Positions 11,517 to 21,632 of a stretch of DNA of 64,000 nucleotides are shown here, piece by piece. The translations under genes and the position numbers were made by a program. A model generated the notes under the pieces. That model ran no database searches. It was not told the DNA's origin and saw nothing but the letters and a program-made list of their open reading frames with translations. The first letter of the stretch is position 1, and the number at the start of each line of letters is the position of its first letter. Source of the stretch: Acidimicrobiaceae bacterium (GTDB lineage Bacteria; Actinomycetota; Acidimicrobiia; Acidimicrobiales; RAAP-2). The stretch spans positions 37,426 through 101,425 of the forward strand of contig DAHUZJ010000077.1 in the NCBI GenBank assembly GCA_027306585.1, written 5' to 3'.

Positions 11517-11849
11517 ATGCCCATCGTCCGTAGTGCCAACGAGCTCTCGACCACCCGGGGAGACGGCTACACCGAGACGGCGTGCGCCAGCTCGGAGATC
11601 TTCGGCGCACCGGTCCCCATGCAGGCCCGCCGGTTCGTCGTGCAGCCGGGCGCCACGGTTCCGGTCGACGTGGTCGGTGACGAAGCGATGGTCTACGTCG
11701 TGACGGGCACGGGCGTGCTCGAGACCGGCCCCGAGCGCCACGACCTCGAGCCCGAGTCCGTGGTGTGGCTGGAGCCACCGGCGAGCACCTTCGTGCACGC
11801 GGGGGATGGCGGCGTGGAGGTGCTGGTGGCCGAGGCGCCCGGACGGTGA
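11517..11849 (+). CDS. Small cupin-like protein
   Basis: 110 aa; FVVQPGATVPVDVVGDEAMVYVVTGTGVLETG... Confidence 0.7.
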   Translation: MPIVRSANELSTTRGDGYTETACASSEIFGAPVPMQARRFVVQPGATVPVDVVGDEAMVYVVTGTGVLETGPERHDLEPESVVWLEPPASTFVHAGDGGVEVLVAEAPGR

Positions 11850-12760
11850 ACCACTGGGGCGGCGTCCTCGGCGCCCCAGTGACGCCGTTCGACGCCGAGG
11901 GCGGCATCGACACCGCTCTCTTCGAGCGCAACGTCGAGTTCCTTCTCGCCCAGGGCGTCGACGGCATCACCGTTCCGCTCCACACCGGCGAGTCGCCCAG
12001 CCTCTCGGTCGCCGAGCGCAAGCGGTTGGCGGCGGCCGCCGTCGAAGTGGCCGGGGACCGGGTGCCCGTCCTGGTCCATGCCAGCATGCCCGGGACGACA
12101 GCGGTGATCGACCTCGCCCGCCATGCCGAGACGGTCGGGGCGTCGGCGGTGATCTCGGTCACCCCTTACCACTGGCGGCCTCCGCACAACGCACTGGCCG
12201 CCCACTACCGCGCGTTGTGCGGCGCCGTCGGGATCGACGTCTTCGCCTACAATTTCCCTTCCCGGCTGGGCGTGGCCATCACGCCCGAGCTCGTGGAGGA
12301 GCTCGTCGACGCCTGCGGCAACTTCGTCGGGGTGAAGGACGCGTCCTACGACATGCAGAGCTTCACCGAGTGCGTCCGGCGAGGCTGCGCCCGCAGGCCG
12401 GCGTTCGCCATGCTGCCCGGCGTCGAGTACCTCGTCCCGGCGATGGCCGTCGGGGGGGCCGGCTGCTTCTCGCCGTCGAGCGCCATCGCCCCGCGCCTGG
12501 TGCGCCGGCTGTACGCGGCGTGCGTCGGCGGCGACTGGGAGGTCGCCCGGGCCTGCCAGTTCCGGATGTCGGGCCTGTGGCACCTGCTCCGCGAGACCGG
12601 CTACCCCGCCTCGGTCAAGGCGGCCATGGCGATCCTCGGACGCCCCACCGGCGGGGTGCGCCTGCCCCTGCTCGACCTCGACGGCGACCAGCGCACGCGA
12701 CTGCGGGTGGGTCTCGAGTCGCTCGGGATCCTCGACGAGGAACCCGTTGGCTGGAACTGA
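11846..12760 (+). CDS. DapA-like (dihydrodipicolinate synthase / N-acetylneuraminate lyase superfamily) aldolase, paralog 1
   Basis: GVLGAPVTPFDAEGGIDT...GITVPLHTGES...YHWRPPHN...YNFPSRLGVAI...FVGVKDASYD (Schiff-base Lys); GTGA overlap. Confidence 0.9.
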   Translation: MNHWGGVLGAPVTPFDAEGGIDTALFERNVEFLLAQGVDGITVPLHTGESPSLSVAERKRLAAAAVEVAGDRVPVLVHASMPGTTAVIDLARHAETVGASAVISVTPYHWRPPHNALAAHYRALCGAVGIDVFAYNFPSRLGVAITPELVEELVDACGNFVGVKDASYDMQSFTECVRRGCARRPAFAMLPGVEYLVPAMAVGGAGCFSPSSAIAPRLVRRLYAACVGGDWEVARACQFRMSGLWHLLRETGYPASVKAAMAILGRPTGGVRLPLLDLDGDQRTRLRVGLESLGILDEEPVGWN

Positions 12761-12811
12761 CGCAATTGACCCCATGAACGGAGCGGGGGGCGGCGGCGGC
12801 GAGAGCGGCGC

Positions 12812-12970
12812 CATGATCCGTCACGCACGGTACGCGCTCGGCTCCTCGGCCGAGCTCCCGACCTGCAGGGCCACGAGGTGGTCGGCTGTCCGATCGACGC
12901 TGACGTCGTGCGGCCGGACGAGCGTCGGCACCGGCCGGAACTACTCGACCGACCTCGCGCGCGGCACGTC
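12812..12970 (+). pseudogene. Degraded N-terminal fragment of a Rieske oxygenase gene
   Basis: MIRHARYALGSSAELPT then, after a frameshift, LQGHEVVGCPI; matches MIRNAWYALGFSAELSTGGLQGHQIAGHPI of the intact gene at 56223-57344 in this window. Confidence 0.75.
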
Positions 12971-12983
12971 CTGACCGCCCGCC

Positions 12984-13979
12984 TCAGGTCTCGTCGCTCA
13001 GGCCGTCGCTCACGGCCTTGTCCTCGCTGACGAGCTCCATGCCCGCGCCGCGGGCAACCAGCTCGATCATGGCCGCGAAGTCCGAATCGGCGAACCCGTT
13101 GCCGACGCCCGCCTGCACAAGGTGGTAGACGAGCCCGGCGACGGGCATCGGCACTTGGAGCGACCGAGCCGCGTTGAGCCCGAGGTCGAAGTCCTTGCGC
13201 AAGAGGGTCGTCGTGAACGTGGGCTTGAAGTCCAGGTTGACCAGCGCCGGGGTCTTGTACTTGCTGAACGCCGATCCCATCACCGAGCTGTTGAGGAAGT
13301 CGAGGAAGTCGCTACGGGCGACCCCCGCCTTCTCCGCCAGCACGAGCACCTCGGCCAGCGACTGGATCGTCATGCCGAGGAAGAGGTTGTGGCACAGCTT
13401 GACCAGCCGAGCGACGTCACCGTCGCCGACGTACGTGACGGCCTGCCCCAACATCGCCAAGTAGGGCTGGGCCCGGTCGAATGCCGTGCGCGGCCCCGAG
13501 ACCGCAACCGTCATCCGTCCCGCACGCACCGCCTTGGGGTTGCCGCTCACCGGCGACGCCAGGAACTGGGCGCCGTGCTCGTCGCACCGGGCGCGAGCTT
13601 CGACCGACGCTTCGGTGGACACCGTCGAGCAGTCGACCACGATGTCCGGGACGGCACCCCCGCTGAGCAGCCCACCCTCGCCGCCGAGGACGGCGAGGAG
13701 GTCGTCGGACGCCGCGACGCAGATGAACACGATGTCCCGGGTGGCCAGCTCGGCAGGACTGTCGACCGCCTTGGCACCCTCCGCCACGAGCGGCTCGGTC
13801 TTGGCCCGCGTGCGGTTGTAGACGGCGACGTCCTCCCCGGCGCGCAGGAGCCGCAGCACCATGGCCGATCCCATCCGCCCGGTGCCGATCCAGCCGAGCG
13901 AGAGCTTGCCGTCCCCGGCATGCATGGCGCCGTCGTCCGGCCCGCTCACGAGCTCGACCCCCATCGACCGGTTCGCCAC
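12984..13979 (-). CDS. NAD(P)-dependent 3-hydroxyisobutyrate dehydrogenase-family protein
   Basis: LSLGWIGTGRMGSAMVLRLLRAGEDVAVYNRT...DCSTVSTEASVEAR...VARLVKLCHNLFLGMT. Confidence 0.92.
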   Translation of the reverse strand: MANRSMGVELVSGPDDGAMHAGDGKLSLGWIGTGRMGSAMVLRLLRAGEDVAVYNRTRAKTEPLVAEGAKAVDSPAELATRDIVFICVAASDDLLAVLGGEGGLLSGGAVPDIVVDCSTVSTEASVEARARCDEHGAQFLASPVSGNPKAVRAGRMTVAVSGPRTAFDRAQPYLAMLGQAVTYVGDGDVARLVKLCHNLFLGMTIQSLAEVLVLAEKAGVARSDFLDFLNSSVMGSAFSKYKTPALVNLDFKPTFTTTLLRKDFDLGLNAARSLQVPMPVAGLVYHLVQAGVGNGFADSDFAAMIELVARGAGMELVSEDKAVSDGLSDET

Positions 13980-13984
13980 GTGGC

Positions 13985-13998
13985 CGCAAACGATTGCA
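13985..13998. promoter_or_regulatory. Putative LacI-family operator CGCAAACGATTGCA (site 3)
   Basis: CG-centred palindrome just downstream of TTGACA(14029-14034)-17-GATACT(14006-14011) reading leftward to the HIBADH-family gene. Confidence 0.6.
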
Positions 13999-14005
13999 TC
14001 CCGAC

Positions 14006-14034
14006 AGTATCCAAGTGTTGCGGTCCGTTGTCAA
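14006..14034 (-). promoter_or_regulatory. Putative sigma70-type promoter TTGACA-17-GATACT
   Basis: Perfect -35, 17-nt spacer; the -35 overlaps the stop codon of the upstream M24 peptidase gene. Confidence 0.65.
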
Positions 14035-15230
14035 GCAACTGGTCGATCGTCACGTGGCTCAGGGCCGGCGCCGAGCCGTCCGAGTCCCCGTGGGTAGCGG
14101 TGCAGCCGCTCATGGCCATCCTCGGTGACCAGCACCAGCTCACCGGTCTGCACCCCCGCCGACGAGGCCGGTGTCACCACGTTGGGCTGCACGACCACGG
14201 CCATGCCCGGCTCGAGCACCACGTCGTCGTGCTGTGGTGGCCGGCCACCGCCGGGGACGACGGGCGGCAGGTACCCGCCGCCGTAGCCGTGGACGATGTC
14301 GTCGCACGTGGTGAAGCCCGCCTCCTCGATCAGGCGGGCGGCGGCGGCCAAGTCGGCCCCGGTGGCGCCCGGCCGCACGCAGGCCAGCACCGCGTCGAAA
14401 GCTGCCGTGGCCACCTCGTGCAAGGCCGCGTAGCGCGGCGTCGGCTCGGACTCCACGGTGAACGTTCGCAGGAGCTGGCCCGGGTAGCCCCACCAACTGG
14501 CGCTGATCTCGCACGCCAGGACGTCACCCTGGGCCAATCGACGGTCCGACGGCCACTGGGCCGGGACCCGCACGGACGGCTCGGTCATGGACGTGACAGC
14601 GAAGTAGTGGATGTGGGTCGTCCCGCCCTCACCTGCAGAGGCCGCATCGACGAGGGCCCCCAGCGCCGACTCGGTCATGCCCACTCGGGCGCCGGCGAGG
14701 GCCCGCACGGTGGCATCGGTCAGCGCCACCCCTCGCCGGAGCCAGTCCAGCTCTTCGGCGGACTTGACGAACCGGGCGCGGCGGAAGGCGGCGTCGAGGA
14801 AGACGGGCTCCACGCCGGCGGCCAGGAGCGTGGGCATCGCCGAGGCGGGGACCGGGCCGACGATGCCCACGCGCCGGTTGCTCCCCCGGCCGGCCGGGCG
14901 GCGACCGACTTCCTCCGCCACCGTTTCGAAGGTCGACGAGCCGCCCCATCGAACGTCGACCCCCCCGGCCAGCGCCCGGGCGTTGTCGAGGTGGTTGGCG
15001 AACTGCACGAAGAGCACCGAGCCCTCGACGGGCGACCACAGCACGGCGGCCTCCCGGGTCACCGGCCACTGCGTGAGCCATTGCACCGTGGCGCCGGCGC
15101 GGTCCGCGCCGTACACGAGGAGATCGGCCACGTCGGCCGAAGCCAGGATGTCTGCCGCTACCGACCGGCGGCGTGCCATCTCGTGCTCGCTGAAGCGGGG
15201 ATATCCGGTTCCGGTTGCAACGGTCGTCAT
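14031..15230 (-). CDS. M24 family (Xaa-Pro) metallopeptidase, paralog 1
   Basis: MTTVATGTGYPRFSEHEMARRRSVAADIL...GDVLACEISASWWGYPGQLLRTFTVES...HGYGGGYLPPV...LEPGMAVVVQPNVV. Confidence 0.85.
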   Translation of the reverse strand: MTTVATGTGYPRFSEHEMARRRSVAADILASADVADLLVYGADRAGATVQWLTQWPVTREAAVLWSPVEGSVLFVQFANHLDNARALAGGVDVRWGGSSTFETVAEEVGRRPAGRGSNRRVGIVGPVPASAMPTLLAAGVEPVFLDAAFRRARFVKSAEELDWLRRGVALTDATVRALAGARVGMTESALGALVDAASAGEGGTTHIHYFAVTSMTEPSVRVPAQWPSDRRLAQGDVLACEISASWWGYPGQLLRTFTVESEPTPRYAALHEVATAAFDAVLACVRPGATGADLAAAARLIEEAGFTTCDDIVHGYGGGYLPPVVPGGGRPPQHDDVVLEPGMAVVVQPNVVTPASSAGVQTGELVLVTEDGHERLHRYPRGLGRLGAGPEPRDDRPVA

Positions 15231-15447
15231 GTCCCTCCCCACGTGCGTCGGTACCGGGCGACCCGGCCAGCGCGGCGGAGCCTACGCCTGTTCCATCCGG
15301 GACGGCACCGCTTGCGCGGGGACGGCACGCCTTGCTGTGATGGTGTGATCCGGACGCCGGCGTCCAGTTCCGAGTGGCGTGCGCGTGGCACGGGCAAGCG
15401 GTCCGACCGGCGCCCGGGTCGAGTAGGCCAATGAGGAAGGGGGCGAC

Positions 15448-16002
15448 GTGGCAGACAACGGCACCTCGTCGGGTCGGGTGGACCTGGCGCGCCAGCAGGC
15501 GGAGATCGACCGCATCCGGGCGGCCAAGTCCTCACTCGCCCCCGAGGAGCGGCGGGTCACGACGCGTGCGGTCATCTCGATCGTCGAGGACACCAAGCTC
15601 GAGGGCCGTCTCGGACGGTTCCGCATCCATTCCGACGAGCCGGCCGAACGGGGCGGGGACGACACCGCGCCCTCACCGCTGCAGTTCCTCATGGCGGCGG
15701 TCGGCTTCTGACTGCTGACCCAGGTGGCGCGGTTCGCGCCCCTCTACGACGTCCCGGTGGACGAGGCAACGGCGGACGTCCGGGCGACGTTCTTCAACAC
15801 GGAGAAGTACGGCGTGGACCAGGCGCCGGCCCACTTCGAGCAAGTGACGGTGGCGCTGTCCATCGACTCCCGTGCGCCGGCTGGGGCGGTCGCTGCGCTG
15901 GCCGCGCACGCCGAGCGGGCGTGCCACGCCGCACAGAGCTTGCGACACCCCGTGCCGGTCACGCTGTCGACCACCCACAACGGCACCTTGCTCGACGAGT
16001 GA
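15448..16002 (+). CDS. OsmC-like protein with in-frame TGA at the catalytic Cys position; putative selenoprotein (184 codons with readthrough)
   Basis: Two same-frame ORFs joined by a single TGA (15709-15711): ...PSPLQFLMAAVGF-[TGA]-LLTQVARFAPLYDVPVDEATADVRATFF...HAERACHAAQSLRHPVPVTLST; second OsmC Cys (RACHAAQ) retained. Confidence 0.75.
15722..15743 (+). promoter_or_regulatory. Putative bacterial SECIS (bSECIS) hairpin
   Basis: AGG-U(bulge)-GGCGC-[GGUUC]-GCGCC-CCU; apical GG 19 nt after the TGA. Confidence 0.6.
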
Positions 16003-16041
16003 CCCCGCTCGAGTGGCGGCCAGCGCGGACGGTGCCGGACC

Positions 16042-17073
16042 TCAGGGATCGACCGGGGCGGGGGCGGTCGATCCCCGGACGATCAGGTTCGGGGAGACGA
16101 GCACCTCCTTGAGGGGCATCTCGGGCATCTCCAGCCGCTCGAGCATGATCTCGGCGGCTCGGGCCCCGATCTCGAACTGTGGGATGCGCACGGTGGTCAG
16201 CGGCGGCTGAAAGCGGTCGACGAAGGGCATGTCGTTGAAGCCGACGACCGAGACGTCGGCGGGACACCGGAGCCCCGCGCGCTCGAGGGCGGTACCGCAG
16301 CCGAGGGCCATCATGTCGTTGCTGGCGACGACCGCCGTCGGCGGGCGGCCACGCGACAGCAATTCGAGCGCGCAGCGCTCACCCTCGGGGGCGGTGAAGC
16401 TCGCGCCGAACACGACGAGCTCCTCGTCGATCTCGAGCTCGAGGGCCCGCATGACCGAAAGGTAGCCCTGGTAGCGGGCGTGCCCGGTGGAGAAGGACTG
16501 CGGGCCGGCGAGGTGGGCGATGCGGCGGTGCCCCAGCTCGGCCAAGTGCTCGATGGCCAAGCGCACCCCTCCGGCGTCGTCCACGGACACGGACGAGAAG
16601 GCGTGACGCTCCAGGACCCGGTTGAAGAGCACCACGGGAACGCCTTCGTCGGTGAGCTGGGCCAGGCCGGGACCCTCCCGGTCGGCGGTGGCGCAGATGA
16701 GGCCGTCGACCCGGCGGTCGAGCATCCCCGCGAAGATGCGCTCCTGACGCGTCGGATTGTTGTCGGTGTTGGCGATCAGCGCGACGTAGCCGTCGAGCGC
16801 AAGACGATCTTCGATGCCCCGCAGCATCGGCGGGAACAACGGGTTGGCGATGTCGGGGACGACGACGCCCACCGACATCGTCCTGCGGGTCTTGAAGCTC
16901 CGCGCGAGGTAGTTGGGCCGATAGCCCAGCGCCGTCGCTGCCGCAGTGACGCGGTCGACCGTCTCGGGTCGCACGAGTGAGCGGGTCGCCACGTTGAGCG
17001 CTCGCGAGGCCGTGCCCGGGTGGACGCCCGCCGCCTCGGCTACTTCCCGCAGCGTCACGGTGTCCTGTGGCAC
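16042..17073 (-). CDS. LacI family transcriptional regulator
   Basis: VTLREVAEAAGVHPGTASRALNVATRSLVRPETVDRVTAAATALGYRPNYLARSFKTRRTMSVGVVVPDIANPLFPPMLRGIED: HTH, hinge helix and periplasmic-binding-like domain. Confidence 0.95.
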   Translation of the reverse strand: MPQDTVTLREVAEAAGVHPGTASRALNVATRSLVRPETVDRVTAAATALGYRPNYLARSFKTRRTMSVGVVVPDIANPLFPPMLRGIEDRLALDGYVALIANTDNNPTRQERIFAGMLDRRVDGLICATADREGPGLAQLTDEGVPVVLFNRVLERHAFSSVSVDDAGGVRLAIEHLAELGHRRIAHLAGPQSFSTGHARYQGYLSVMRALELEIDEELVVFGASFTAPEGERCALELLSRGRPPTAVVASNDMMALGCGTALERAGLRCPADVSVVGFNDMPFVDRFQPPLTTVRIPQFEIGARAAEIMLERLEMPEMPLKEVLVSPNLIVRGSTAPAPVDP

Positions 17074-17085
17074 GCTACCTCCCTG

Positions 17086-17101
17086 TTGGGCCAGGGCCCA
17101 A
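17086..17101. repeat. Inverted repeat TTGGGCC-AG-GGCCCAA upstream of the LacI regulator
   Basis: Perfect 7-bp arms, 13 nt upstream of the start codon. Confidence 0.6.
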
Positions 17102-17162
17102 GGTTATCGGGGGACGGCGGAAACCGGGCGCTCCGACGGTCGCGCCGTTACGGGCCTCCCCG

Positions 17163-18125
17163 TCAGAGCAGGCCCACCTCGGCGAGGTCGGCGCCGAGCG
17201 CGTCGATCGTGGCCGGCTCGGGGCTTCGCAGTGGTGGGCGCACCGGACCGCCGGCCATGCCGAGCAGCCCTGCCCACGCCTTGATGATGGGCACCGGGTG
17301 CTCCCCGCGGGAACGGGCGTCGTGGAGCCACTTGTCCGACAGGTTGCGGAGCGGCGCCATGGCGTCGCGCACCGCTGACGCGGTGGCGACGTCCCCGGAG
17401 AGGGCGGCCCGGGTGTAGTCCCGCATCGGGCGGTGGGCCGGCGTCTGCAGCAGGTACGGGGCGGCCGACGACATGAAGACCCGCTGGCCGTGGTCGCGCA
17501 TGTTGGCCAGCCACTCGGTCTCGTTGGGCTCGCACACGAGGATCCGGTCCCCGACCTTGGCCAGGACGTCCAGGTAATGGGCGTGCGGGTGGCCGACCTT
17601 GATCCCGCAGATGGTCTCGAGGTCCGCGAGGCGGGACACCAGGTCCAGCGAGAGGGCCGGTCCGGCGAACCCCGTGTCGAAGACCCACACGCCGAGGTCG
17701 GCGGCGGCGCAGAGGCGGGCGTAGAAGTCGTAGATGCCCTCGTCGTCGATGCCCACCGGATAGTAGGGACGGACCACGACGGCGAAGTCGGCGCCTGCCG
17801 CCTCCGCCTGCCGCGTGAGCTCGATCGCCTCGGTGAGCGAATGGTGCCCGGTGTGGGCGATGACCGGGCACCGGCCACCCGTCGCCGCGACGACGGCCGC
17901 CACTTGCGCTGCTCGCTCGGCGGCCGAGAGCGCCCAGAACTCGCTCATCACGCCGGTGCAGAAGATCCCGTCGACCTCCACCCCGTCGACCAGCCGATGC
18001 ACGTCGGCTGCCAGGGCATCCAGGTCGCACCGGCCGGCCACATCGAACGGCGTGGTCGACGCCGCCCACAGCCCGGTGAAGGCCTCGGCCGCCGCCTGCT
18101 TGGCGTCCGCCCTCGAATAGCGCAT
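17163..18125 (-). CDS. DapA-like (dihydrodipicolinate synthase family) aldolase, paralog 2
   Basis: AEAFTGLWAASTTPFDVAGRCDLDALAADVHRL...GVMSEFWALSAAERA...TICGIKVGHPHAHY. Confidence 0.85.
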   Translation of the reverse strand: MRYSRADAKQAAAEAFTGLWAASTTPFDVAGRCDLDALAADVHRLVDGVEVDGIFCTGVMSEFWALSAAERAAQVAAVVAATGGRCPVIAHTGHHSLTEAIELTRQAEAAGADFAVVVRPYYPVGIDDEGIYDFYARLCAAADLGVWVFDTGFAGPALSLDLVSRLADLETICGIKVGHPHAHYLDVLAKVGDRILVCEPNETEWLANMRDHGQRVFMSSAAPYLLQTPAHRPMRDYTRAALSGDVATASAVRDAMAPLRNLSDKWLHDARSRGEHPVPIIKAWAGLLGMAGGPVRPPLRSPEPATIDALGADLAEVGLL

Positions 18126-18163
18126 GATCCGTCCCCTTCGTTCAGCTGTTCACCCGGTGCCGC

Positions 18164-19651
18164 TCACCAGCTCGTCGCGATGTACTTCGCCTCGAGGTAC
18201 TCGAGCATGCCCTCGTGGCCGCCCTCACGCCCGAGCCCGCTCTGCTTCACGCCGCCGAAGGGTGCCGCCGGGTCGGAGACGAGGCCCCGGTTGAGGCCCA
18301 CCATGCCCGACTCGAGCGCTTCGGCGACCCGCAGGCCCCGGGCGAGGTCGCCGGTGTAGACGTAGCTCACGAGGCCGTACTCGGTGTCGTTGGCGAGCGA
18401 GACCGCCTCGTCCTCGTCGCGGAAGCCGACGACCGGGGCAACGGGCCCGAAGATCTCGGTGCGGAGCAGCTCGGCGGAGCTGGGCACGCCGGCCAAGACG
18501 GTCGGGGGGTAGAAGAAGCCCGGGCCCTCGGGGGCCGCTGCCCCGGTGAGCGGGGAGGCCCCTTCCCCCACGGCGTCGTGGACCAGCTCGTCGACCTTGT
18601 CCCGGCTGGAGGCGTTCACGAGCGGGCCCACCTGGACGCCTGCTGTCAGGCCCGGCCCCATCCGCAGGGCCCCCATGCGCTCGGCCAGCAGCTCGGCGAA
18701 GCGCCCGGCGACCGAGGCCTCGACGAAGAACCGGTTGGCGGCGGTGCACGCCTCGCCGCCGTTGCGCATCTTGGCCACCATGGCCCCCTCGAGGGCGGCC
18801 TCCAGGTCGGCGTCGGCGAAGACGAGGAACGGGGCGTTGCCGCCCAGCTCCATCGAGCAGCTCACCACCTTGTCGGCCGCCAGGGCGAGGAGGGTCCGGC
18901 CGACCTCGGTCGACCCGGTGAAGGAGAGCTTTCGCACCCGGTCGTCGCCGAGCACGGTGCGCGAGAAGTCCGACGAGCGCCGGGAGGGCACGATGTTGAC
19001 GACGCCTGCCGGCACCCCCGCCTCCTCCAGGATCCGGCCGATGGCGAGGGCGGTGAGCGGGGTCTCGGAGGCTGGCTTGCACACGACGGTGCACCCGGCG
19101 GCGAGGGCGGGGCCGATCTTGCGGGTGAGCATGGCGGCCGGGAAGTTCCACGGCGTGATGAGGGCGGCCACCCCGATGGGCTGGTAGGCGACGAGTATCC
19201 GGTTGGCCCCCGACGGGGCGGTCATGAGCTCGCCCACGTTGCGCACCGCCTCTTCGGCATACCAGCGGAAGAACTCCGCGGCGTAGGCGACCTCCCCCCG
19301 GGCGTCGGGAAGGGCCTTCCCGTTCTCCAAGGTGACGAGGCGGGCCAAGGACTCGGCCCGCTCGGTCATCAGGGTGAAGGCCCGGCGCAGCAGCTCCGCC
19401 CGCTCCCGGGGGGCGGTCCTGCCCCAGGACCCGAGGGCCTCTGCGGCGGCGTCGACGGCGGCCGTGGCGTCGGAGGGCGCGCCGTCGCAGACGGCGGTGA
19501 TGGGCGCTTCGGTGGCGGGGTCCAGGACCTCGATCTCGCGGCCGTCTGCCGACCCCTGCCACCGCCCGCCGATCAAGGCGCCGGTCGGCACCCATTCGAG
19601 CAGCTCGGCTGCTACCGCCTTCGTGTCGTGGGCGGGCGCCGTCGTCGTCAT
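18164..19651 (-). CDS. NAD(P)-dependent aldehyde dehydrogenase (succinate-semialdehyde dehydrogenase type)
   Basis: MTTTAPAHDTKAVAAELLEWVPTGALIGGRWQ...TLENGKAL...ITPWNFPAAMLTRKIGPALAAGCTVVCKPASETPL...ELGGNAPFLVF...GGEACTAANRFFV; ATGA overlap with the upstream gene. Confidence 0.95.
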   Translation of the reverse strand: MTTTAPAHDTKAVAAELLEWVPTGALIGGRWQGSADGREIEVLDPATEAPITAVCDGAPSDATAAVDAAAEALGSWGRTAPRERAELLRRAFTLMTERAESLARLVTLENGKALPDARGEVAYAAEFFRWYAEEAVRNVGELMTAPSGANRILVAYQPIGVAALITPWNFPAAMLTRKIGPALAAGCTVVCKPASETPLTALAIGRILEEAGVPAGVVNIVPSRRSSDFSRTVLGDDRVRKLSFTGSTEVGRTLLALAADKVVSCSMELGGNAPFLVFADADLEAALEGAMVAKMRNGGEACTAANRFFVEASVAGRFAELLAERMGALRMGPGLTAGVQVGPLVNASSRDKVDELVHDAVGEGASPLTGAAAPEGPGFFYPPTVLAGVPSSAELLRTEIFGPVAPVVGFRDEDEAVSLANDTEYGLVSYVYTGDLARGLRVAEALESGMVGLNRGLVSDPAAPFGGVKQSGLGREGGHEGMLEYLEAKYIATSW

Positions 19652-20622
19652 GCCAGTGACCTCCTCACTCCCTCGACGATGCGCGCCACGTTGGGCAGGG
19701 CCGCATCCTCCAACGCGTCGGCGGCGGGCAGGGGCACGTGGGGGGTGGTGACCCGCACGATCGGCCCGTCGAGGTCGAAGAGGTTCTCCTCGGCCACGAT
19801 CGAGGCCACCTCCGCCCCCCACCCGCACAGCCTCGGGTTCTCCTCGACGGTGACGAGGTGCCCGGTGGCGGCGACCGACGTGGCGACGGTCGTCACGTCC
19901 AGGGGCACGAGCGAGCGCAGGTCGATGACCGTCACCTCGATGCCCTCTCGGGCCAGCTCGTCGGCGGCGGCGAGGGCCCGGGGGACCATGGCCGCCAGGG
20001 CCACGACCGTGGCGGCCGGGCCGTGGCGGACGACGGCCGCCTTGCCCAGCTCGTCGACGAGCTCGCCGTCGGGGACGTCCCCTTTGGTGGCGTAGAGGGA
20101 CTTCTGCTCGAAGAAGAGCACGGGGTCGGGGTCGCGCACCGCAGCCGCCAAGAGCCCCACCACGTCGCTCGGAGTGGAGGGGGCGACCACCTTCAAGCCC
20201 GGGATGGCCATGGCCCAGTTCTCCACGCTCTGGGAGTGCTGAGCCCCGAAGCGGGCCCCGCCGCCGTTGCCCGAGCGGATCACGAGCGGCAGGGCGACCT
20301 GGCCGTTGGTCATGTAGCGGGCCTTGGCGATCTCGTTGGCGACGATGTCCCAGCACACGGCGAAGAAGTCCGAGAACATGATCTCGGCGATCGGGCGCAG
20401 GCCGGTCATCGCCGCCCCCATGGCCGCCCCCAAGATGGCCTGCTCGGAGATGGGCGTGTCGACCACCCGTCCCTTGCCGAAACGCTCCTGGAGCCCGACG
20501 GTGGCCTTGAACACCCCGCCGGCCGAGCCGATGTCCTCGCCCAAGAACACGACCGAAGGGTCCCGGGCCATCTCCTGGGCGATGCCGTAGGCGACGGCGT
20601 CCCGGTAGGTCATCTCCGCCAC
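19648..20622 (-). CDS. 2-oxoacid dehydrogenase E1 component, beta subunit
   Basis: VAEMTYRDAVAYGIAQEMARDPSVVFLGEDIGSAGGVFKATVGLQERFGKGRVVDTPISEQAILGAAMGAAMTGLRPIAEIMFSDF. Confidence 0.95.
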   Translation of the reverse strand: MAEMTYRDAVAYGIAQEMARDPSVVFLGEDIGSAGGVFKATVGLQERFGKGRVVDTPISEQAILGAAMGAAMTGLRPIAEIMFSDFFAVCWDIVANEIAKARYMTNGQVALPLVIRSGNGGGARFGAQHSQSVENWAMAIPGLKVVAPSTPSDVVGLLAAAVRDPDPVLFFEQKSLYATKGDVPDGELVDELGKAAVVRHGPAATVVALAAMVPRALAAADELAREGIEVTVIDLRSLVPLDVTTVATSVAATGHLVTVEENPRLCGWGAEVASIVAEENLFDLDGPIVRVTTPHVPLPAADALEDAALPNVARIVEGVRRSLA

Positions 20623-21632
20623 GTGGCACCTCCGTCGCTGAACACGTCTCGGTGGACCAAGGCGAGGTCGGGCGGCGGGCTCGCCATGGCCTGCTCGGTC
20701 GCCTCGTCGACGGCCTCCTGGGCCGCCTCCTCCACCCGCACGAGGGCTCCCTCGTCCACGCCGGCCGCCACGAGGCGAGCCCGGTAGGTGGGAATGGGGT
20801 CGCGGGCGAGCCAGGCGGCCACCTCGTCGTCGGGGCGGTACTTGCCCGGGTCGGCCCTCGAGTGCCCGCCGTGGCGGTAGGTCTCGGCCTCGATCAGGCT
20901 CGGGCCGCCGCCCGCCCGGGCGCGCTCGAGGGCGGAGGCGGCGGCGGCGAAGGTGGCGTCGGCGTCGTTGCCGTCGATCAGGATGGGGTCGAGGCCGTAC
21001 GCGGGGGCCCGGCCCGCCGCCGGGTGGGCGACGGCCGTCACCGAGGAGATGGGGGTGTACTCCATCCAGCGGTTGTTCTCGCACACGAAGACGATCGGCA
21101 GCTGCCAGACGGCCGCCAGGTTGAGGGCCTCATGGAACGCGCCGATGTTGGTGGTCCCGTCTCCGAAGAAGCACACGGTGACCTCGGGGGCGCCCCGCAG
21201 CTTGGACGACCAGGCGGCCCCGTTGGCGATCGTGAGGTGGGCGCCAACGATGGCGTAGGAGCCCATCATCCGGTGCGGGATGCTCGTCAGGTGCATCGAG
21301 CCGCCCTTGCCGGCCATGAGGCCGAGCTGGCGGCCCATGAGCTCGGCCATGACCGGCGCCATCGGCACCCCGCGCGCCAGCGTGTGGTTGTGGCCCCGGT
21401 AGGTGCAGAACGTGTAGTCCTCGGGCCGCAGCGCCACCCCGAACCCGGCGGCCACCGCCTCCTGACCGAGCCCCAGATGGCTCGTCCCCTTGACCAGGCC
21501 CTGGAGGAACAGGTCGTAGGCGCGCTTTTCGAACGCCCGCATCTCCACCATCGAGCGATAGAGGCGGAGGCGGACGTCGGCGGACGGCGCCGGTGGGGCC
21601 GGAGCGGCGGGGCTTTCGGAGAGGCTGGTCAT
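20610..21632 (-). CDS. 2-oxoacid dehydrogenase E1 component, alpha subunit
   Basis: LYRSMVEMRAFEKRAYDLFLQGLVKGTSHLGLGQEAVAAG...KGGSMHLTS...GDGTTNIGAFHEALNLAAVWQLPIVFVCENN. Confidence 0.95.
   Translation of the reverse strand: MTSLSESPAAPAPPAPSADVRLRLYRSMVEMRAFEKRAYDLFLQGLVKGTSHLGLGQEAVAAGFGVALRPEDYTFCTYRGHNHTLARGVPMAPVMAELMGRQLGLMAGKGGSMHLTSIPHRMMGSYAIVGAHLTIANGAAWSSKLRGAPEVTVCFFGDGTTNIGAFHEALNLAAVWQLPIVFVCENNRWMEYTPISSVTAVAHPAAGRAPAYGLDPILIDGNDADATFAAAASALERARAGGGPSLIEAETYRHGGHSRADPGKYRPDDEVAAWLARDPIPTYRARLVAAGVDEGALVRVEEAAQEAVDEATEQAMASPPPDLALVHRDVFSDGGATWRR

Follow-up and report, generated by a model that had tools for sequence, protein, structure and literature searches.

The in-frame TGA at position 15,709 of the window (the whole stretch of 64,000 nucleotides analysed here) is, as far as comparison of sequences can tell, almost certainly decoded as selenocysteine (Sec), and the protein that contains it would belong to the OsmC-like selenoprotein family with the motif UxxT. 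What seems a broken gene under the standard code would then be the intact gene of a redox enzyme. The gene is a well-supported member of a family that has been known since 2005 and for which an annotation model already exists; its relevance lies in the observation that an OsmC-like selenoprotein, first encountered in ocean metagenomes, is also present in other bacteria, including a clade of Actinomycetota with a full Sec system. Moreover, because Sec replaces Cys while the catalytic Glu of the Ohr type is absent, the gene lends itself well to the question of what Sec contributes to an OsmC active site.

One gene across an in-frame TGA

The original prediction joined two same-frame open reading frames, split by one TGA, into a single gene, and the domain search bears this out: the gene has one internal in-frame TGA, its readthrough product comprises 184 residues, and the OsmC domain PF02566 extends across the TGA (residues 70-173, E = 3e-13), thereby placing both halves within one domain (Table 1). 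The GTG start is supported by a relative, L043, whose gene starts there with ATG, and it is preceded by a Shine-Dalgarno-like element, in agreement with the ribosome-binding site that had been predicted. The second OsmC cysteine, likewise said to be kept, is present as C159. Since the upstream gene is divergent and the downstream gene convergent, the OsmC-like gene stands alone.

Table 1. Features in and around the OsmC-like gene, in window coordinates
Feature	Position	Strand	Remarks
M24 peptidase, upstream neighbour	14031-15242	-	divergent
Shine-Dalgarno-like GAGGAAGG	15433..15440	+	7 nt 5' of GTG start; direct sequence reading
Predicted OsmC-like selenoprotein gene	15448..16002	+	GTG start, final TGA stop 16000-16002, 184 residues
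In-frame TGA, predicted Sec codon 88 (U88), motif U-L-L-T	15709..15711	+	Sec by comparison with relatives
bSECIS hairpin	15722..15743	+	predicted fold and covariation
TGC codon of C159, putative resolving Cys	15922..15924	+	invariant in the 30-sequence alignment A3
LacI-type regulator, downstream neighbour	16042-17073	-	convergent

Family membership and conservation of the TGA column

The protein matches the NCBIfam model NF041052.1 (OsmC_like_Se, 'OsmC-related (seleno)protein') with 151.4 bits against a cut-off of 95 (E=1.5e-44), over model positions 2-144 of 144, and only its N-terminal extension falls outside the model. The expectation that automated annotation would call the gene a pseudogene or two small reading frames was therefore overstated: with a dedicated NCBI model in existence, current NCBI annotation need not label it a pseudogene, and such a call is not inevitable. 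Reports of UxxT-type OsmC-like selenoproteins date from 2005 for the Sargasso Sea (3 sequences; PMC1088965) and from 2008 for the GOS data (5 sequences; PMC2398784), and reviews published in 2022 and 2026 include them (PMC9312934, PMC13188914), so that the metagenomic reports mentioned in the original prediction do exist. The window gene resembles these selenoproteins in its OsmC domain, in Sec followed by xxT (here U-L-L-T) and in a bSECIS after the TGA; it differs from them in that it comes from an Actinomycetota-type genome rather than from a marine metagenome read, and in that its clade has an N-terminal helical extension (residues 13-27 in the AlphaFold2 model) and is set off from the other clades by a long branch of 2.35 changes per column.

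In the alignment, TGA occupies the same column in 49 relatives as well as in the window gene, the TGA-bearing relatives being MAGs labelled Actinomycetota, Deltaproteobacteria/Binatia, Chloroflexota, Acidobacteriota and Pseudomonadota. The closest of them (L043-L049) are independently assembled Actinomycetota MAGs at 72-82% identity, many more lie at 28-39%, and the motif that begins at this column reads ULLT, UMLT, ULLS or UEMT. The column also aligns with Cys, as the original prediction required, in L083, L088, L091 and L094 and in 3cje, a homologue of known structure. Only eight columns of the 30-sequence alignment A3 are invariant, and U88 and C159 are among them. A recent nonsense mutation would look just like this in-frame TGA, and a misread TGC or TGT might be suspected given that the source is a draft assembly (2.98 Mb in 138 contigs, 92% complete); however, the closest relatives, independently assembled, share the same codon, which indicates that the TGA is due neither to chance nor to a sequencing error. 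Relatives from different phyla, assembled independently and 28-82% identical, moreover share this TGA, the protein is conserved past it with C159 invariant, the SECIS element covaries and the Sec machinery is complete, as detailed below. We thus consider a pseudogene or sequencing error extremely improbable; conservation of the TGA column, combined with the SECIS, already refutes this reading.

A tree of the Sec and Cys forms needs four Sec-Cys changes; owing to long branches, its root and the placement of L097, L085 and L083 are unsure, and we therefore claim no direction of Sec/Cys change. Two irregular sequences were encountered among the relatives. L029 (G058:C16:8580-8735) is a second, truncated copy whose genome contains a full one as well; it covers the C-terminal third, is 65% identical, keeps HAERACHAAQ, and is possibly a gene remnant or an assembly piece. 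In L096 (3001-3484) the frame is lost after the TGA region and a second TGA is present, possibly through a frameshift in that assembly.

The SECIS hairpin and the selenocysteine machinery

The original prediction had called for a bSECIS search, and a covarying hairpin was found directly downstream of the TGA. With numbering from the T of the TGA (position 1), the predicted fold pairs A14-U35, G15-C34 and G16-C33, leaves U17 bulged, continues with a stem of 18-22 with 28-32, and contains G23 G24 U25 in its loop region. The SECIS of E. coli fdhF is a hairpin just after the UGA with a bulged U17 and GGU in the loop; the window hairpin is alike in all of these respects, whereas its upper stem is one pair longer, its apical loop is GGUUC and its stem sequence is another. 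Stability of the 45-nt stretch that starts with the TGA exceeds a synonymous-codon null in 48 of the 50 genes (mean z = -1.69), and CGG is the Arg codon behind the loop GG in 46 of the 50; five Cys forms tested against the same null mostly show no excess stability, with L091 being stable in a different fold. Across 18 distinct sequences in the same register, 98.9% of cells are paired and the covariation score is 0.695, both sides having changed in four of the five pairs. Slid partners, by comparison, are 33-64% paired and score at most 0.336, and the observed score is reached in none of 500 shuffles. In other clades the hairpin is kept with its register shifted by one nucleotide.

The genome search for selA, selB, selC and selD that the original prediction had called for recovered all four, clustered on contig C97 within 5 kb in the order selA, selB, selD and tRNA-Sec (selC). 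The tRNA-Sec (C97:6242-6333) scores 69.8 bits against a cut-off of 47, and ARAGORN types it as SeC with the anticodon tca; selA is located at C97:1624-2763, and selD, between selB and selC, was assigned by visual inspection of its sequence and location, with no model. The selB-type gene that starts at C97:2884 encodes 604 residues and scores 218.8 bits, which is below the TIGR00475 cut-off of 242; there is nonetheless little doubt that it is selB, because it is full length and flanked by selA and selD. A TGA in a classical Sec motif also occurs in two formate dehydrogenase alpha genes outside the window, QARIUHSATV in L139 (C57:51639-52379) and NRTUHAPSV in L138 (C122:4605-6467), each followed by a predicted hairpin. 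Together with the OsmC-like gene, the genome thus likely encodes at least three selenoproteins, and, judged by its gene content, the cell makes selenoproteins. An AhpD-related selenoprotein (NF041238) was also sought in the genome, with a single sub-threshold match, which is without a TGA.

These data also bear on the possibility that a different tRNA, not tRNA-Sec, decodes the TGA, either under a reassigned code or by near-cognate suppression. With a tca-anticodon tRNA-Sec and selA, selB and selD present, a covarying SECIS, and Cys occupying the column in relatives, as Sec predicts, we give this reading hardly any chance, nothing having been found in its favour except the open frame itself; TGA is, furthermore, the normal stop of the very same gene, which, along with the tRNA-Sec, rules out a recoded genome. 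Sec insertion remains our preferred reading, and the Sec machinery, the TGA/Cys column and the covarying bSECIS jointly support the earlier proposal of a Sec/Cys pair rather than a broken gene.

Predicted fold, possible function and gene neighbourhood

AlphaFold2 predicts the OsmC/Ohr fold (pLDDT 89.8), and the closest solved structures among PDB matches are OsmC/Ohr proteins. By sequence, the nearest solved relative is 3cje (OsmC-like Jann_2040 of Jannaschia sp.), with about a fifth of residues identical; it shares the motif, but with Cys for Sec (C-V-M-T-Q), and has its second Cys in GCFLEQ. The thiol peroxidases Ohr and E. coli OsmC (PF02566) display the same fold and the same two redox positions, whereas the window protein would have Sec in place of the peroxidatic Cys and has an invariant Leu at the position of the Ohr catalytic Glu. 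During the Ohr reaction, the peroxide is attacked by a thiolate Cys and the resulting sulfenic acid is resolved by another Cys, after which a lipoylated protein reduces the disulfide, with Arg19 and Glu51 assisting; in XfOhr this catalytic Glu51 lies ten residues before the peroxidatic Cys61 (PMC5962072). The N-terminal portion, where XfOhr has its catalytic Arg19, has diverged strongly in the window protein. At the corresponding site of the window protein, if the helix 77-96 is taken to be free of gaps, no Glu was found; the residue is Leu78, invariant in A3, which weakens the case for an Ohr-type peroxidase mechanism, and such a mechanism should not be assumed.

We nevertheless favour a scheme in which the SECIS hairpin directly downstream recruits SelB and tRNA-Sec, which would decode the UGA as selenocysteine, and the product is predicted to fold as an OsmC/Ohr-type protein with Sec88 at the N-proximal reactive position. 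Sec88 would most likely reduce a peroxide or some other small oxidised molecule and then form a Se-S bond with Cys159, the oxidised Sec88 being re-reduced, presumably, by a thioredoxin-like or lipoyl partner. By analogy with OsmC/Ohr proteins, Sec88 and Cys159 very probably constitute a redox pair, and the enzyme is probably a seleno-peroxidase or a selenol/thiol redox enzyme; as to its substrate, the balance tips slightly toward a hydroperoxide. The papers retrieved contained no assay of the OsmC-like selenoprotein family.

Alternatively, the protein may contain Sec without being a peroxidase, acting instead in the manner of YhfA as a selenol-based disulfide reductase, as a sulfur carrier or as a detoxifier of some other oxidant or electrophile. 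Among OsmC-like proteins, the YhfA branch is reported to be exceptional in not sharing the peroxidase activity of the other two (PMC4069020), the selenoprotein family is placed in COG1765 (YhfA) by a review (PMC9312934), and Leu78 is invariant where Ohr has its catalytic Glu. The two invariant redox residues at OsmC/Ohr-like positions and the presence of true Ohr enzymes among the structural neighbours argue the other way, leaving this alternative a serious one that we would nonetheless place somewhat short of even. More doubtful is the suggestion that the Actinomycetota clade formed by the window gene and L043-L049 is a biochemically distinct branch, whose selenol reaction is perhaps other than Ohr-type hydroperoxide reduction; it draws on the N-terminal helical extension, the lack of conserved redox neighbours and the combination of Sec with Leu for the Ohr Glu.

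Gene neighbourhoods differ among the clades. In the Binatia/Deltaproteobacteria relatives L055, L058, L059, L062, L065 and L069, a small CMD-domain gene and then a thioredoxin gene follow downstream, the thioredoxin having a longer C-terminal tail and a domain match over residues 11-111 (the first residues of the query, outside the match, are approximate). These neighbours point to redox work, although they fit several redox roles, including those of a non-peroxidase, and the arrangement is absent from the window's clade. Redox gene neighbours are not conserved within that clade, and when five flanking window proteins were sought near the relatives, the sole recurrence was the M24 peptidase, in one relative (L043), which yields no clue to function for the window's clade. 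The surroundings of the gene in the window (11765-21632) look catabolic: the domain search near the gene identified the M24 peptidase, a 3-hydroxyisobutyrate-type dehydrogenase and the LacI-type regulator, and two dihydrodipicolinate-synthase-like proteins, an aldehyde dehydrogenase and dehydrogenase E1-like subunits were recognised by eye.
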